Source: Vitis vinifera
Lineage: Eukaryota > Streptophyta > Magnoliopsida > Vitales > Vitaceae
Direction of reading: 5' to 3'
Assembly (NCBI RefSeq): GCF_030704535.1
Contig: NC_081811.1
Location: forward strand, 485,501-549,500
DNA: 64,000 nt
How positions within the stretch are numbered: the stretch's first letter is position 1; every line of letters begins with the position of its first letter. The notes under the pieces are model-generated. The model ran no database searches, was not told where the DNA came from, and worked only from the letters and a program-made list of their open reading frames with translations. Shown piece after piece: positions 2,682 to 15,058 of the stretch. The translations under genes and the position numbers were made by a program.

Positions 2682-5600
2682 TGCTGTACCGTAAGCTATG
2701 GTCAGTGCTTTTATAAAAAAATCCCAGCATATGATACTCGTGGTCACCTTATGATGTAATCAAAGTGATTATTCAATGGTTTCTAACCAGGGTCTTCTTC
2801 CTAGAAATTCTAAGATTCCACGCGCTTTTCTCCACGATTTGTAACCTTGAACTTGGAACTTGGAAGGACCTACCCGTGGAAACACACGGTCAAGAGCAGC
2901 CTTCTTCTTCCCCTCGCGTGGCTCACACAACAATTTTACTTCCTTTTTTCTTTTTTTTTGAAAAAATATTTATTTGAAAAATATGGTCAAATTTCCCTTC
3001 CAACCCCATTTCAAACTAAATGAAATGTACTGCATTTAGGTTCCATTTAGTTGTGTTTTTAAATAACACTTAATAGCCGAATAACTATTTTTAGAAGAAA
3101 TTTAAGTGTTTGATAAAATTTAAAAATCACTTTTAAAATATTAAAATCATTTATAATTCTCGTCAATATATTTTTTTTTTAAATGTTTCTACTTTTTATA
3201 GTAAAAACATTTTTATTTTTTACAATAAGTAGGTTGAGTACTACAATTTCCCACAAGTTCTAAATTTGTATTTAAAAAAAAAATAGATTCTTTTTATATC
3301 AAACTCATCTATTATCTAAATTTGGTTTTTAAGAAAGATGATTATTTCTTATATGCAACTCGTCTTTTTGTAAACACGAGTTTACCATTTTTTCTAATAC
3401 AATAACTTTAGAATTATTTTTTATTTAATGGTTTTTAAACTTTTAAAAAAATTGTTGAACATTCCTACGTCTTGAACCCAACTCCATCCTAGGCTTAAAT
3501 TTATTATTTGATTTTTATTAATATTGATTGATACAATGAACTTAAATTTTGTTTATAAATTATCAAATTTATATATTTATTTTTATTAATATATATTTTT
3601 AATCTTAAGTAATAAAATTTATTTACTAAATATACATATTAAAAATATAATTCATACATAAAAAAAAAAAAAAGTAATTGATGAGAAGCCATAATCGTAA
3701 AAGAGGCAAACAGGGTGAAGGATATAGATTCAATAAACTAATTATTTTAATTTAATATTTAAAATTATTTTTAACAAGTTATGCATTAAATTATTTTATC
3801 AAACATATTTAATAATCTAAATTATATTATTATGCATATTCATGTAATGTTAATAACCTTTTTTCGGTGGTCAAGATGGGATATTGCAACTTTCGACAAA
3901 AAATAAAATTTTCACATTTATTTTAAAAAAAATCTATTTTTAAAATAAATTTAATGTTTTTAAAATTTTTTAAAGTATTACAAATAATAATTCAAAAGAT
4001 AAAAAATATTTTAAAAACTTTTACATTACACATAAGTGTTGTGTGTTCAAATAATATAAGTTGAAAACTCGAGTTTTTAAATAAAATCTTATTCATAAAA
4101 ATAACAAATTTTTAATTAAAAAAAAGTATTCAAAATATTAGAAAAATATTTTTAGCCTTTGACAACCACTCCCTTTTCCAAACTATGATTTTTGTTAATA
4201 TTATAATACATGGCATGCATCACGAGAAGCAATTCTCCAGTCATGGGATATTGGGATGCATGTGTGGTAGCTTAAAAACCACAGAAAATATTTAAAAAAG
4301 AAAATAAAAAAAAATTATTAACTTATAATTAATTTATTTTCACTTATTATTATTTTGATTTTATATTATGTGTAACAAAACGTTTCCATCACAGGAGAGA
4401 ATAAAATTCAATGAGGTTGGTAGGGCGGGCGACAGTGGAAATGGGTTGGACTTCATATTACAGAGGAAGCTGGAGTCACGTCATTGAATTCTTCCATTTT
4501 CAGCCATTTAAATTAATGTGGCCTTTCTTGGAATAAATTCATTTTTTCCATATTCCTCACATTTTGCCCAATTTTCTTGACTTCCAAACGCCAACCCAGA
4601 TTCCCTTTCAACCGCCCACTGATTGATTGTAATCTTATTGTTATTTTGGAGTAGATTTAAAATCTGTTAGCTAATGCTTTGTTAAAAAGCAATTATAGTT
4701 ATAAAAAAAACCTTAATTAAAGAAAAATAATATATAGAAAATGTTTTTAAATTGTTTACACTGTACAAAAGTACTTTTGATGATGATGCTTTGAATAAAT
4801 TCAATAATCGTACACATTTGGAGGCCATCGAGGTGGAATACTTTTCTTCGTTTCATATAAAGTCTATTTTCCACTTATTTATTTATTTTTATTTTACACG
4901 TGAAAATAATTAAACACATATGTCAAATTATTCGATAAAAGGTTGTTTCTGTTAGGTTGACCATGAAAAATAAGGAAAATTTTACTTTCTTTGACTTATC
5001 ATGAAAAAAAATATAAAATATAATTAAAATTAGTTAAAATTTTATGTAATTTACTATCATTTAATTTTTTAAAAATAAAATGAATTTAAATCCATATGCA
5101 AAAATAATTTATTAATAAAATAAATTTATATTAAATGTTATGAAAAAAAGTTGAAAAAATAGATTTAAGAAAATAAAATTTTATTTCTTTTTTTAATTAA
5201 AAATGTGAGAAAAAATGTTCCTTTAATTTTTTTCTTTATAAAAAATATTTAAAATTAAAAACTAATCTACTATTTAAATACCATACTAGGTTTAATAATA
5301 TTAATAATTCAAAGTGCCTATAAAAAAAATAATATTAATAATATGTATGGTATCATTTCTTGGAAATATCTTCTGTCAACATGATTTTCTAAATTTATTC
5401 TTATCGTCATCTTCCACGAAGTGGTCCAAAGCACATACCGGCCATCTCTGATAATGAAAGATATAATATATTTTACAGCTCAATTATGTTGTTTTGCAAT
5501 AAATTATTATTTTAAAAATGTGGTGATATAAGCGGAATTTGGGTCAAAGTGGTAAACTCCTCGTGGGGTTTATTGTAGATACATTAAACTATTATCGGGT

Positions 5601-8317: not shown

Positions 8318-8773
8318 TGATGCATAAACCATTTCAAATCCAATAATATCATACATGAATAGTATGTTTAATCATGTGAAGAAATTATGTCATCCTGTCC
8401 ATGGATTTAGAACATACCTGAGTCCATTTTTCCTTTGAATTTTGAATAAGGTATGGATATTCTAAGGTTGTAGAGGGGTATCCACTGTTTTTGTAATCTC
8501 TCTGACGATAAGAGCGGGAGAGACCACGTTATGTTCTATTCAAAAGAAGATGTGTTCAAAAGGAACAAACATTTATCCTTATATACCCTCTATACCTTAG
8601 GGACTATGCCCTTTAGACTATTGGGCCTTGAGTGTCTTAGGCCCATCATCTAAGACCCATTATAGCATTGGGCTCTACATATAAAGTGACCCATACTCAA
8701 TAAACACAAATTGAAATAAATATAGATAGCTTAATAAAAAACTATGTTACATATGTGAGTCCATGTTTTAACA
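8318..8773 (-). repeat. 3' LTR of the copia element
   Basis: 456 bp, collinear with the 5' LTR at roughly 89% identity by hand alignment. The TG/CA termini and the immediately flanking CAAAA duplication fix its ends. Confidence 0.93.
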
Positions 8774-8785: not shown

Positions 8786-9399
8786 GACCACATATATTAC
8801 AGAACAATGTTCATGATAATACTTTATTGAGCTCATCTTTGCTATTCTATCTAAATATCCTTAAACAATCCAGTCGACTAATTATGCTAACATAGGATTA
8901 AAGCGGCCTTCGTTAATCGTATTTATAATTAGATCCATCAATGATCACAACATTAACAAAATTAGCAACATGGATCAAGTATGAATGTGTAGAATGGAAA
9001 TTACATAGAATGTGATCTTTAATATGTCTATTTCCAATTGGTCCTACTTTATGACTAAAAATAGTCAAATTCCACTTTCAACACTTGATGCTAAACTCCT
9101 TTTGAAAGTCATCATTTCAATTCAGAGTATTCAAATACAATAATCTTTAAAATCAAGGTTTGTATAGATAACACAAACATAATAACACATCAAGAAAACA
9201 AACACAAAATCTAAATACAAACTCTCACTATAATAGCACATCATCAATATGTACAACACCCATATGTGTGACATGTTTATGATATACTTTGGGTGGCAAA
9301 CCCTTAGTAAGAAGATCCGCAATCATGGAGTTTGGGCTTATGTGTTCAATCGATACTTGAAGACCCTAAACTATTTATTTCACAACCAAGAACTTGATG

Positions 9400-11398
9400 T
9401 CAATGTGTTTGGACTTTGACGAACTTCGGTTGTTCTTAGAGTATAGTCCTGCGACCTTATTATCACAATTGATTTTCGATGATTTCTCAATACCATCAAC
9501 GATTTGCAACTGAGTGATAAAATTCCGTAGCCATATCCCATGGTTTGATGCCTCGTAGCAGGATATGAATTATGCTTCCATGGTGGAAGAAGCAATAAGT
9601 GTTTGTTTAACACTTTTCCATGAAACTACTCCTCTAGCCAACATGAAGATGTAGCCTAAAGTGGATCTCCTACTGTCAAGACATCCCGCAAAATCGGAGT
9701 CCGAATATCCCACGATTTCTAAATGACTGGATCTACGATATGTGAGCATATAATCTTTAGTTCTTTGTAAACACCGCATAACCCGTTTTGCCTTTTTCCA
9801 ATGATCCATACTTGGGTTACTCAAATATTTGCCTAACATTCCAACAATGTACGCAATATCCGGATGCGTACAAACTTGTGCATACATGAGACTTCCTACT
9901 GCTGAGGCATAGGAAACCTTTCTATATCATTCTTCTCAAGTTCATTTTTCGGACATTAGTGCAAACTAAATTTATCGCATTTTGCCACAGGCGTGTCTCC
10001 TGGTGCACAATTACTCATGTCAAACCTATTTAACACTTTATCGATGTAGGACTTTTGTGATAGCCCAAGTATACCTCTTGAACAATCCCTATAGATATGT
10101 ATACCCAACATAAAATATGCATTACCAAGATCCTTCATGTCAAATTTACTGGATAGAAATCGCTTGGTTTCATGCAAGAGTTCTACATCACTACTGGCAA
10201 ATAGAATATCATCTACATATAGCACCAAGATAATGAATTTGCTCCCACTGAACTTGAGATATATGCATTGATCAACGATGTTCTCCTTAAAACCAAATGA
10301 AGTAATCGCCTGATCAAACTTTCGGTACCATTGTTGGGATGCCTTCTTTAAACCATACATGGACCTTTTTAATTTGCATACAAGTTGCTTTGAATCATTA
10401 GACTCAAAGTTCTCCGGTTGCACCATGTATATTGTCTCATCAATGTTAACTTTAAGAAACGCAGTTTTAACGTCCATTTGATGTAACTCTAAACCATAAT
10501 GAGCCACAAGTGCCATGATGATTCTAAAGGAGTCATTTGATGAAACCGATGAAAAGGTCTCCTTATAATCAATGTCTTCTTTTTGAGTGAAACCTTTTGC
10601 GACTAGGCGTGCCTTATACCTAGCAATGTTGCCTTTTGAATCTCGCTTGATTTTTAAAATCCATTTATAATCAATCGGTTTTACACATTCAGGCAACTCT
10701 ACTAGGTCCCAAACACCATTGTCTTTTATTGATTTCATTTCATCCTTCATGGCTTCTATCCACTTTTCAGAGTCAAAACTTTGTTTGACTTGACTAACTG
10801 AAATTGGATCGTCTTCCAGACCCATGTCAAACTCATGTTTCTGGAGATATACAACATAATCATTTGAAATTGCACTTTTCATTTTTCTAGTGGATTTTCT
10901 CAGTGGCACTTGTACTTGAGGTTCTTGAGGTTGTTGAGTTACCTCTTTATGAACTTGAATTGGTTCAATAACTTGAGCAGGAGGAATCTCAGGTGTGTCT
11001 ACAATCTCTGTTATTGGTTGTACATTATGGATAGTGTCATCAAACATAATATGACCATGTTCAGTTGTAATAATAGGAATACTAACATATTCCTCTTCAA
11101 AGACCACCTTTCTTAATGGTTCTCTCTCACTTAACTCAACATCCTCAATAAACTTAGCATTGTCCGTTTCAAATAAGGATCTAGTTGAGGGGTCATAGAA
11201 CTTGAAACCTCTCGACCTTTCAGAATACCCTACAAAGTAGTAACTCACTGTTCTAGAGTCCAATTTCTTTTCATTTGGCTTGTAAGGCCTAACATCAACT
11301 GGACAACCCCAGGCATGCAAGTGCCTAATACTAGGTTTCTTGCTAGTCCATAACTCATATGGGGTTTTGGCTATTGCTTTGCTTGAGACTCTATTCAA
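9400..11398 (-). pseudogene. copia reverse transcriptase and RNase H remnant
   Basis: The frame 11398-9956 (480 codons) encodes the integrase C-terminus and the copia reverse transcriptase, with DVKTAFL and the catalytic YVDDILFAS. It stops at TAA 9956-9958 (SLH*CPKN), continues in frame briefly, then needs a 1-bp correction near 9920. The RNase H part (9887-9570) includes the YSDSDFAG motif and stops at STMEA*F. RT copies element RNA into cDNA and RNase H removes the RNA strand. The catalytic motifs survive but the chain cannot be translated through. Confidence 0.88.
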
Positions 11399-11399
11399 A

Positions 11400-12495
11400 A
11401 TATAAACTGCAGTTTTGACAGCTTCGCCCCAAAGTCATTCTGGTAAGGTGGAATGACTGATCATACTTCTTACCATATCCTTAAGAGTACGGTTTCGCCT
11501 TTCTGCTACCCCATTTTTGGCTTGGAGTCCTCGGCATGGTGTACTGAGGAACGATACCACACTCCATCAAATATTTGGCGAATGGCCTTGGACGTTGTTC
11601 ACCGGATTCGTCATATCTACCATAATATTCACCTTCACGGTCAGATCTGACGACCTTTATTTTCTTGCTTAGTTGGTTCTCAACTTCAGCTTTAAAATTC
11701 TTGAACACATCCAATGACTAAGACTTTTCATGAATCAAATAAAGATAGTCATAGTGTGAGTAATCGTCAATGAAAGTAATAAAATATTGTTGTTCATTCC
11801 AATAAGGGGTAGGAAATGGACCACAGATGTCCGTATGTATTAATTCCAAGACATCACCGCACCTATTGACATCATTTTTCCTTATATTTGTTTGTTTACC
11901 CTTAATACCTTCTATACAGACCTGAAAGTCCGAGAAATCAAGTGGATCAAGAATTCCTTCTAACACAAGCCTTTGAATATGTTGATTTGAAATATGACCC
12001 AAACACCTATGCCATAACATTGAAGAATTCTCAATTGTTAATTTTCGCTTAATGCCATAATTACTTGAATACAAGGTTTCATTTCCATTAGAGGCCTTTA
12101 TGTTCAATTTGTCTGATAGACTACCTGTACCAATAACATTTGAATTTTGATAAAGACTAACCATTCCATTTCTAAATGAATAATAATATCCACATTTGTC
12201 TAGACATGAAACAGAAATTAAGTTCCATCTAAACGATGGTATTACAAAGGTCTCTTCCAAATCCAAAGTACATCTAGAGTCTAACTGTAACCTAAAAAGA
12301 CCAATAGCCTTGACTACAGCCTTGTTGTCATTTCCCACATAGATGTATCTTTCACCATCGGTTGGCCTTTGACTTTTTAGGCAACCCTGCATTGTGACAC
12401 TTATGTGAGTAGTTGCACTCGTATCTATCTACCAAGTGTTAGTAGGCACTATTGCTAAATTAATTTCTGAACAAACAAAGTTGAGAAGTGTACCT
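11400..12495 (-). pseudogene. copia protease and integrase remnant
   Basis: Minus-strand reading resumes after the nested insertion. The protease motif reads IDTSATTH where the family normally has D-T/S-G-A, so the flap-side Gly is lost. A TAG at 12429-12431 sits just before it in place of an expected Trp. The GAG-pre-integrase region (HRCLGH...VCIEGIKGK) lacks one Cys of the HHCC zinc site. The integrase core shows HTD and SDREGEYY, with a stop at 11718-11720 (EKS*SLDVF), and a frameshift around 11480-11500 after PSQ. Retroviral-type integrases insert the cDNA into the host genome; this copy is inactive. Confidence 0.85.
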
Positions 12496-12500
12496 TTCTT

Positions 12501-12647
12501 TGTTGGCAGATCGGAGGGTTGGTCGCGTCCATCAACTCCCCTTGTGTTCGCTGTGGGCACTTGGGTGAATGCACTATAAGGTTAGGGTATACGTCTTTCC
12601 TACCAGCAATTACTTTTAGGAGAGTTGGTAGCGTCTGAGGTCCTACA
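12501..12647 (+). repeat. Left (5') LTR of the mini-element
   Basis: 147 bp, TG...CA termini, about 91% identical to the partner at 12706-12852, with 11 of 13 differences being transitions. Confidence 0.92.
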
Positions 12648-12705
12648 AGTGGTATCAGAGTCGAGGTCACGGGTTTGAACCCTAGGGGTGTCGTTGGGGG
12701 GAGAT
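12648..12705 (+). other. 58-bp internal domain: PBS, tRNA-like palindrome, PPT
   Basis: It contains TGGTATCAGAG at 12650-12660 (primer site), then a perfect short palindrome GGGTT-TG-AACCC (about 12671-12682) that resembles a tRNA T-arm / B-box, and a purine tract ggggggaga at 12696-12704. Nothing else fits in this space, so this is close to the minimum an LTR element can carry. Confidence 0.8.
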
Positions 12706-12852
12706 TGTTGGCAGATCAGAGGGTTGGTCACGTCCATCAGCTCCCCTTGTGTTCGCCGTGGGCGCTTGGGTGAATGCATTATAAGGCTAGGGTATGCGCA
12801 TTTCCTACAAGCAATTGCTTTTAGGAGAGTTGGTAGCGCCTGAGGTCCTACA
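12706..12852 (+). repeat. Right (3') LTR of the mini-element
   Basis: 147 bp, the same length as the left LTR with no gaps. It is followed directly by the TTCTT duplication and then by resumed gag sequence of the host on the minus strand. Confidence 0.92.
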
Positions 12853-12856
12853 TTCT

Positions 12857-13685
12857 TTTCACGCCAAGCAGTGTATTTGGTACATGTCTTCTTCATATGA
12901 CCAACTTTCTTGCAAAATAAACAAATGATCTCTTTATCTTGTTTTTTCTGCACCTTTTACTTTGATGTCCCAGAAACTGCAGTTTGTTTTCTTTTATTGT
13001 CCCTCTTTCTTTTCTTGCTGGTACCAAATCCCTGAGATGTGGAAGCCAAGTGAGCATTTTCCAATTTTTCTTGTTTCAATCTCTCTTCTTCTTGTACACA
13101 CTGAACAATAAGCTCATCCCGAGTCCATTTTTCCTTTTGTGTGTTGTAATTGATCTTGAATGGACTAAATTGTGTAGGCAGAGAAATCAAAACCAAGTGC
13201 ACGAGTATATCTTCTGACAACTCTAACTTTAGTGCCTTGAGTCTAGTCGCAAGATTGGACATTTCCATTATGTACTCCCTTATATTCTCTTTCCATTTGT
13301 ACCGCATGGAGACAAACTTACTAAGAATAGTGTTTGTCTCAACTTTTTCGTTTGCAGCGAATCGATTTTCTATCTAGTCTAAGAATGTCTTGGCTTGGGT
13401 TGCCTCGGGTATTGCACCCTTTATAGCTTCTGGAATTGAGTGTTTCATTATCATTAGACTCATGCAATTGGATCGCTCCCATTTTTCCATAGTAGACCTT
13501 TGCTCAGCAGTGTTGACACTAGTAAGGTCTGGATGACGATCCTCTCTTAATGCATAGTCCAAATCCATGCACACAAACACAATTATAACGTGTTCCTTCA
13601 TTTCTTGAAGTTTGTGTCATTAGGCACATGAATGTTATTAACATTTGCAGTTATAGAAGATGCTGAATTCCTAACAATGAAGCTC
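12857..13685 (-). pseudogene. copia gag remnant (UBN2-type Gag with CCHC zinc knuckle)
   Basis: Gag is readable on the minus strand from about 13680 down to the zinc knuckle CLFCKKVGHMKKTC near 12915. Gag binds and packages element RNA in cytoplasmic particles. The frame is broken by an apparent 1-bp deletion near 13601. It also has in-frame stops at 13374-13376 (TAG) and 12957-12959 (TAA), where the same frame continues on both sides. Downstream of the knuckle the frame runs into the inserted mini-LTR element at 12501-12852. Confidence 0.85.
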
Positions 13686-14589: not shown

Positions 14590-14600
14590 CTCTGATACCA
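14590..14600 (-). other. Primer binding site (initiator Met-tRNA)
   Basis: The minus strand reads TGGTATCAGAG, complementary to the 3' end of plant initiator tRNA-Met, two bases inside the 5' LTR. This is the usual minus-strand DNA priming site of plant copia elements. Confidence 0.92.
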
Positions 14601-14602
14601 AT

Positions 14603-15058
14603 TGATGCATAAACCATTTCAAATCCAATAATATCATACAAGAATCGTATGTTTAATCATGTGAAGAAACTATGTCATCTTGTCCACGGATTTAGAACAT
14701 ACTTAAGTCAATTTTTCCTTTGAGTTTTGAACAAGGTATGGATCTTCTAAGGCTATAGAGGAGTATCCACCATTTCTATAATCTCTCTAACGATGGGAGC
14801 GGGAGAGAGCGCGCTTTGTTCTATTTAAAATAAAATGTGTTCAAAAGGAACAGACACTTATCCTTATATACCCTCTATACCTTAGGGACCATACCCTTTG
14901 GACTATTGGACCTCGCGTGTCTTAGGCCCATCATCTAAGACTCATTATGGCATTGGCCTCTACACATAAGGTGACCCATACTCAATAAACACAAATTGAA
15001 ATAGATACGGATAGCTTAATCAAGAACTATGTTACATACATGAGTCCATATTTTAACA
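14603..15058 (-). repeat. 5' LTR of the copia element
   Basis: 456 bp. On the minus strand it runs from TGTTAAAATATGG to GGTTTATGCATCA. It carries a TATA-type promoter motif (GGGTATATAAGG on the minus strand, near 14863-14874). It matches the LTR at 8318-8773 without length difference. Confidence 0.93.

Follow-up and report, generated by a model that had tools for sequence, protein, structure and literature searches.

A 352-bp TRIM family of grape and its chimeras with copia elements joined at the primer-binding site

Plant TRIMs, as characterized in the accessible text of PMC4717578, combine small size and short LTRs with TG...CA ends, 5-bp target duplications, a primer-binding site (PBS) and polypurine tract (PPT), lack of coding sequence and occurrence in tandem arrays. 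Five subfamilies with 228 complete copies are listed there for grape, and in 11 of 289 subfamilies similarity revealed longer coding relatives; for the other 278 none was found, and what mobilises TRIMs is largely open (PMC4717578). Comparably small is the 292-bp SMART element FRetro129 of grasses, not of grape, with 85-bp LTRs and a 122-bp interior, whose putative partner FRetro64 has the PBS and PPT in common with it but not the LTR (PMC3281118, by the available description). According to the sections at hand, Cassandra (PMC7215508) and Helenus and Ajax (PMC10886601) are TRIMs that have, or are suspected to have, Pol III promoter motifs, Cassandra forms tandem arrays too, and template-switch complexes in Triticeae join same-family members with like outer LTRs (PMC1950507). 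For the tandem arrays of Wukong, unequal crossing-over has been proposed, as far as the accessible account goes. Du et al. in 2010 reportedly observed LTR swapping in soybean, with chimeric insertions ascribed to reverse transcription.

A TRIM-class element nested in copia

The window, meaning the whole 64-kb stretch of grape DNA that was analysed, contains a TRIM-class, non-coding and non-autonomous LTR retrotransposon (Table 1), with short direct LTRs, a length far below 1 kb, 5-bp duplications, a PBS, a PPT and no coding sequence. The initial annotation, which had described a structurally complete element of 352 bp with ungapped LTRs, a perfect TTCTT on both sides, a primer site two bases inside the 5′ LTR and a purine tract against the 3′ LTR, and had placed it among the small TRIM/SMART-like elements, was right in each of these respects. 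It was also right that the element encodes nothing, the sole ORF of at least 80 amino acids across it (12600-12953, minus strand) being the zinc-knuckle frame of the host copia entering the insert. The two LTRs are identical at 134 of 147 positions without gaps, differing by 11 transitions and 2 transversions (K = 0.096), and a BLAST search of the window with the element returned LTR against LTR at E = 3e-56 to 1e-55, far beyond chance, and no second TRIM copy in the 64 kb. At the rice rate of 1.3e-8, which we assume here, this divergence would amount to ~3.7 My, a figure that carries no weight in the argument. The PBS is presumably that for the initiator Met-tRNA.

Table 1. Features of the TRIM and of its host copia in the window
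Feature	Position	Strand	Remark
Left target-site duplication TTCTT	12496..12500	.	
TRIM, whole element	12501-12852		352 bp; TG...CA LTR ends
TRIM 5′ LTR	12501..12647	+	147 bp
TATAAGG, TATA-box-like	12575..12581	+	71/80 LTRs of 40 loci
TAGGAGAGTTGG, Pol III A-box-like	12617..12628	+	exact in 68/80 LTRs
TRIM interior	12648..12705	+	58 bp; first bases AG, then PBS
PBS TGGTATCAGAG	12650..12660	+	two bases inside 5′ LTR
T-arm/B-box-like GGGTTTGAACCC	12671..12682	+	GGGTT-TG-AACCC motif
PPT TTGGGGGGAGAT	12694..12705	+	G-rich; abuts 3′ LTR
TRIM 3′ LTR	12706..12852	+	147 bp
Right target-site duplication TTCTT	12853..12857	.	
Host copia 3′ LTR	8318..8773	-	456 bp
Host copia reverse transcriptase piece	9956..11398	-	RVT_2, E 2.1e-71
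Host copia gag-pre-integrase + Pol_BBD piece	11718..12392	-	
Host copia gag piece	12957..13307	-	Retrotran_gag_2, E 5.9e-11
Host copia PBS TGGTATCAGAG	14590..14600	-	
Host copia 5′ LTR	14603..15058	-	456 bp; unrelated to TRIM LTR

The host copia, whose gag, gag-pre-integrase and reverse transcriptase domains were matched as separate pieces, is flanked by TTTTG on both sides. The TRIM lies antisense inside it, as had been claimed, the position within gag being more precisely its 3′ end, with a CX2CX4HX4C zinc knuckle on one side and the protease motif IDTSATTHIS on the other. When the 120-base flanks are joined without the TRIM, one frame reads through the site, and its two stops lie elsewhere. 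The host border reads LTR end, AT, TGGTATCAGAGCC, and the primer site is, as annotated, common to TRIM and host. Divergence between the host LTRs (K 0.119, 455 sites) exceeds that between the TRIM LTRs, which fits insertion of the host copia first and of the TRIM later.

Compared by description, FRetro129 is near-minimal too, whereas here a longer LTR encloses a shorter interior and a partner is seen via chimeras. "Near-minimal", the annotation's term, is fair for the window element, which is no record with 233 bp (PMC4717578) and 292 bp (PMC3281118) in print in the accessible sources. Rfam returned no tRNA, 5S or hammerhead ribozyme match in 12400-12950 up to E 10, and the 5S-derived LTR signature of Cassandra was found in none of 38 two-LTR copies. 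Membership in Helenus/TRIMp3 was rejected on the lack of an Rfam tRNA family and the placement of the A-like box in the LTR and the B-like box in the interior, and a retrozyme (PMC4918200, as outlined in its available text) on the lack of a hammerhead in the same interval. The family, which the initial annotation thought might be undescribed, is possibly one of the five grape subfamilies of PMC4717578, the only source of grape TRIM names in the accessible open-licence literature; the available portions of PMC9097378 and PMC8166872 do not mention it.

A multi-copy family with its own target duplications

In the genome that contains the window (495.6 Mb, 21 contigs), at least 42 TRIM matches with 87-100% identity lie on many contigs, a lower bound from 40 of 272 first-look candidates scored. 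Forty distinct loci, the window included, comprise 38 two-LTR and 2 three-LTR copies, with an interior of mostly 59 bp and LTR-LTR divergence of median K 0.089 (range 0.043-0.198; 435 transitions, 89 transversions). The 5-bp target duplication is perfect at 24 loci and has one mismatch at 11, two at 2, three at 2 and four at 1, whereas the control with shifted left flanks gave 1 perfect and 16 one-mismatch cases among 640 comparisons; the left 5-mers of the 40 loci are all different. The window element is confirmed as a member of a TRIM family whose many copies have their own target duplications. The initial annotation had named as its possible refutation that the two 147-bp units are a local, immobile tandem duplication in the copia, for which the repeat itself speaks and nothing more. 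Copies elsewhere in the genome with independent duplications far above control refute this reading, as does the copia frame that is continuous once the insert is removed, and we leave it practically no probability.

The border pattern CCTACAAGTGGTATCAGAG occurs at 660 sites with up to 2 mismatches, 58 of them exact (reversed control: 4). All 36 exact sites outside the 40 loci were fetched together with four one-mismatch sites. Sixteen of the 36 are complete copies (15 two-LTR, 1 three-LTR), 8 of them with a perfect duplication and the rest with one mismatch (4), two (1) or four (3); the other 20 are partial copies or something else. No TRIM LTR was found at any of the four one-mismatch sites (L084-L087), so that 660 overstates the size of the family.

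Seven exact LTR-border sites, all on the plus strand and one of them belonging to L024, lie within ~410 kb at C16:14947530-15359060 (L070-L075), and L070-L073 have in common a 3′ LTR whose match is confined to the first 52-54 bp, which suggests duplicated blocks. In L058, L062 and L069 roughly the final 10-18 bases of the TRIM 5′ LTR remain ahead of the PBS. An inverted LTR-end piece stands directly ahead of the TRIM LTR end and PBS in L054 (reversed, 461-497), an arrangement as it might appear after foldback or self-integration.

Chimeras joined at the primer-binding site

At an exact border site on contig C14 (L066/L088), a TRIM LTR (~8969876-8970022, minus strand, 89% identity) runs flush at the PBS into the leader and gag of a copia element (Retrotran_gag_2, E 4.4e-28). 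This partner copia is abundant, its gag having at least 150 matches (150 scored of 2640 candidates), and has ~1.2-kb LTRs unrelated to that of the TRIM; in L103 they measure ~1.22 kb and AAAGA stands on both sides. Its border, ...TCA, AT and PBS, is present in five readable 10-kb relatives (L098, L099, L100, L102, L103), with no PBS match in a sixth (L101), and no TRIM LTR was found within 1.5 kb on either side of gag at seven other copia gag loci (L091-L097). The prediction fixed beforehand for C14 was a copia LTR at the 3′ end followed by a flank like GTTTA. A copia LTR indeed stands there (reversed L088 5448-6598, with 79-83% to the copia LTRs used), and GTCTA comes after it, so that the outer flanks agree at four of five bases, with one mismatch; the 577 bases upstream of the chimera contain no copia LTR.

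The TRIM-to-copia joint pattern was found at 13 sites (reversed-pattern control: 0), namely C14, two on C3 with the TRIM spacer AG and ten without it. The two on C3 (L104, L105; TRIM LTR 79%, copia leader 85%) have a common left flank and are counted as one event. Downstream, the 3′ end of L104 is a copia LTR (74-82%), with no TRIM LTR there at E 1e-5. The right boundary is fuzzy, three alignments ending 3-7 bases before the copia LTR end, and is read as CA followed by CCTTT at 4815, with left flanks CCTTT (L105) and CTTTT (L104); this CCTTT was picked with the sequence in view and is thus weak evidence of a duplication.

The reverse pattern, a copia LTR end leading into TRIM interior, has 8 sites (reversed-pattern control: 0). 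Those read are the three that carry the copia spacer AT, L107 (C15), L108 (C16) and L109 (C19), each with copia LTR end, PBS, TRIM interior (88-95%) and TRIM 3′ LTR (90-92%); the latter is without its first 13 bases in L107, and the match to the copia LTRs used spans just ~89 bp in L109. The right flanks of these three complexes are CTCTC, AATAG and CTTGG, respectively. The remaining five sites comprise two within already identified TRIM copies, L010 and L043, and three that carry AG (C6:6374058, C15:15428530, C16:18477129). On C16 (L111), copia interior and PPT precede the copia LTR while spacer and PBS follow it, which makes it a 3′ LTR bearing spacer and PBS. No copia LTR was found on C15 and C19 in the stretches expected to contain the LTR start. 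Upstream of the C15 and C16 joints, at distances of 16 kb and 11 kb, plus-strand copia PBS and leader sites (C15:11896973, C16:16462324) possibly represent the 5′ ends of these complexes.

A further family is joined to the TRIM in L089 (C18:26906600-26916599), where at 8870-9632 on the minus strand a TRIM unit is flanked on both sides by a unit of a different small LTR element that has no Rfam match. Both joints are at the PBS TGGTATCAGAG, the joint strings were confirmed, and the array opens on the left at the PBS with no LTR ahead. At all seven joints read with known donor spacer (six events) the spacer is that of the LTR donor, a tally that leaves out the three AG sites of the reverse pattern, which could break the rule; an eighth joint has AA, not the AG of the TRIM.

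The TRIM is probably packaged, copied and integrated by copia proteins, with the partner copia joined to it by intermolecular second-strand transfer at the PBS. From the chimeras and the position of their joint we infer the co-packaging, the strand-transfer step and the role of this copia as enzyme supplier. TRIM RNA would be packaged by a copia element, primed at the PBS by initiator Met-tRNA, and copied and integrated by copia proteins, and TRIM and copia RNAs in common particles could exchange strands at the shared tRNA primer site. Plus-strand strong-stop DNA terminates in LTR, spacer and PBS; the plus-strand DNA of one element would anneal to the minus strand of the other, at the complement of its PBS. 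The expected products are TRIM LTR, PBS, copia interior and copia LTR, or copia LTR, PBS, TRIM interior and TRIM LTR, each with the LTR and spacer of the donor and the interior and 3′ LTR of the acceptor, as seen on C14 and C3. With a longer plus strand in the donor role, a three-LTR complex would arise as at C16, where the layout around the LTR matches the 3′ end of a plus-strand intermediate.

What tells against reading these loci as products of reverse transcription is that the TRIM/copia events read are five, that the C14 duplication is imperfect and that the left ends on C15 and C19 were not found. The last point also suits a DNA-level origin, in which a TRIM and an adjacent copia, once integrated, underwent recombination or deletion between their 11-12-bp PBS repeats, as do the PBS common to both, short as it is, and the occurrence of nested insertions such as that in the window; the chimera partner would then be uninformative on packaging. 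We consider this origin unlikely, as the C14 flanks fit one integration with no copia LTR upstream, and the C16 arrangement is unexpected from a single simple deletion. The Triticeae complexes (PMC1950507, in its available sections) are alike in being chimeric or three-LTR insertions ascribed to reverse transcription, whereas the joints described here connect, at the PBS, a TRIM with a copia whose LTRs are unrelated to its own. The TRIM class is known; the natural TRIM-copia chimeras are new here, the titles and abstract openings found in the open-licence literature on chimeras, helpers and strand transfer containing none.

Quite unlikely is mobilisation by an autonomous relative that has a TRIM LTR at either end, the copia chimeras being side products. 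VviLTRA5, a longer TRIM-related grape element with a short or truncated protein (PMC4717578, in the text available), speaks for it, while only two of the 58 exact LTR-end and PBS sites (L066, L081) lead on to a foreign interior and neither of these two has coding sequence followed by a terminal TRIM LTR, in a scan that covered the 58 exact sites and few of the 602 further ones with 1-2 mismatches.

Three arrays (L015, L037, L076) bear on strand transfer between TRIMs, which could yield LTR-interior-LTR-interior-LTR with one outer duplication. Unequal crossing-over after integration has slightly less than an even chance as their source; it likewise predicts the perfect outer duplications of all three. 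The divergence of the outer LTRs is suggestive against it (K 0.182, 0.147 and 0.137, with 3, 4 and 4 of 38 single copies as high), and so is the existence of the mixed array with another family in L089. We offer strand transfer as another possible origin of TRIM arrays besides crossing-over.

Concerning the copia involved, a copia helper had been thought plausible from the primer site shared with the host, and it is still so, with the chimeras pointing to the ~1.2-kb-LTR family and none to the host. At up to 3 mismatches, the TRIM LTR end with host-copia leader gave one site, with three mismatches and an AATTGG spacer and thus no TRIM end, and the host copia LTR end with TRIM interior gave none; the host was rejected as partner, the control being unscaled by copy number. 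Borders of the partner copia number 264 (control: 0), and with such abundance in an unscaled comparison it need not be a specific partner. Its PPT and LTR start, GGGGAGAT/TGTTAGC, resembles the GGGGAGAT/TGTTGGC of the TRIM, that of the host copia being a poorer likeness, and such likeness may be common among copias generally. As the TRIM is also joined to the other small LTR family in L089, a joint indicates a shared particle or template and not the enzyme supplier. The chimeras suggest the abundant ~1.2-kb-LTR copia family as one TRIM partner, which names one testable copia family for the 352-bp element. While the relatives in the accessible text of PMC4717578 were found via similarity, this partner lacks LTR similarity and was seen via chimeras; PBS-joined chimeras could be a route to co-packaged partners, to be sought in genome assemblies as an LTR end that continues through the PBS into a foreign interior.

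T-arm-like motif and Pol III-like boxes

The T-arm-like palindrome pointed out in the initial annotation is real and conserved, its B-box-like family form GGTTCGAACCC being exact in 19 of 38 two-LTR copies, with one mismatch in the window copy. The A-like box has 1 mismatch to the Pol III consensus, which was picked after viewing the sequence. An A box with up to 1 mismatch together with an exact B box was found in 0 of 500 shuffles of each of five copies and is present in three of the five, the window copy being without it; with up to 1 mismatch in both, the pair appears in 1-3 of 500 shuffles and in five of five copies. The A-like box ranks 5 of 136 LTR 12-mers in conservation, which largely follows from its lack of CG and CHG sites, and conservation was dropped as support.

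It is distinctly doubtful that a split Pol III promoter brackets the PBS and yields a Pol III RNA that copia proteins copy with strand exchange at the PBS. The A-box-like TAGGAGAGTTGG in the LTR and the B box GGTTCGAACCC in the interior would form it, 55 bp apart; the TATA box precedes the A-like box by ~40 bp, and a TTTT located where the next LTR has its A-like box might serve as terminator. The template would then be a Pol III RNA, its promoter complete only at the 5′ LTR, and the layout unlike that of Cassandra, Helenus and Ajax. Independently of promoter function, the box-like motifs are here divided between LTR and interior, in contrast to Cassandra and Helenus/Ajax as described in the parts of PMC7215508 and PMC10886601 at hand. 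The PBS is followed by an exact B box within 25 bases at 41 sites (control: 0), of which 40 resemble the TRIM; the sole exception, C13:1565004-1565035 on the minus strand, is perhaps another small family with a like layout.
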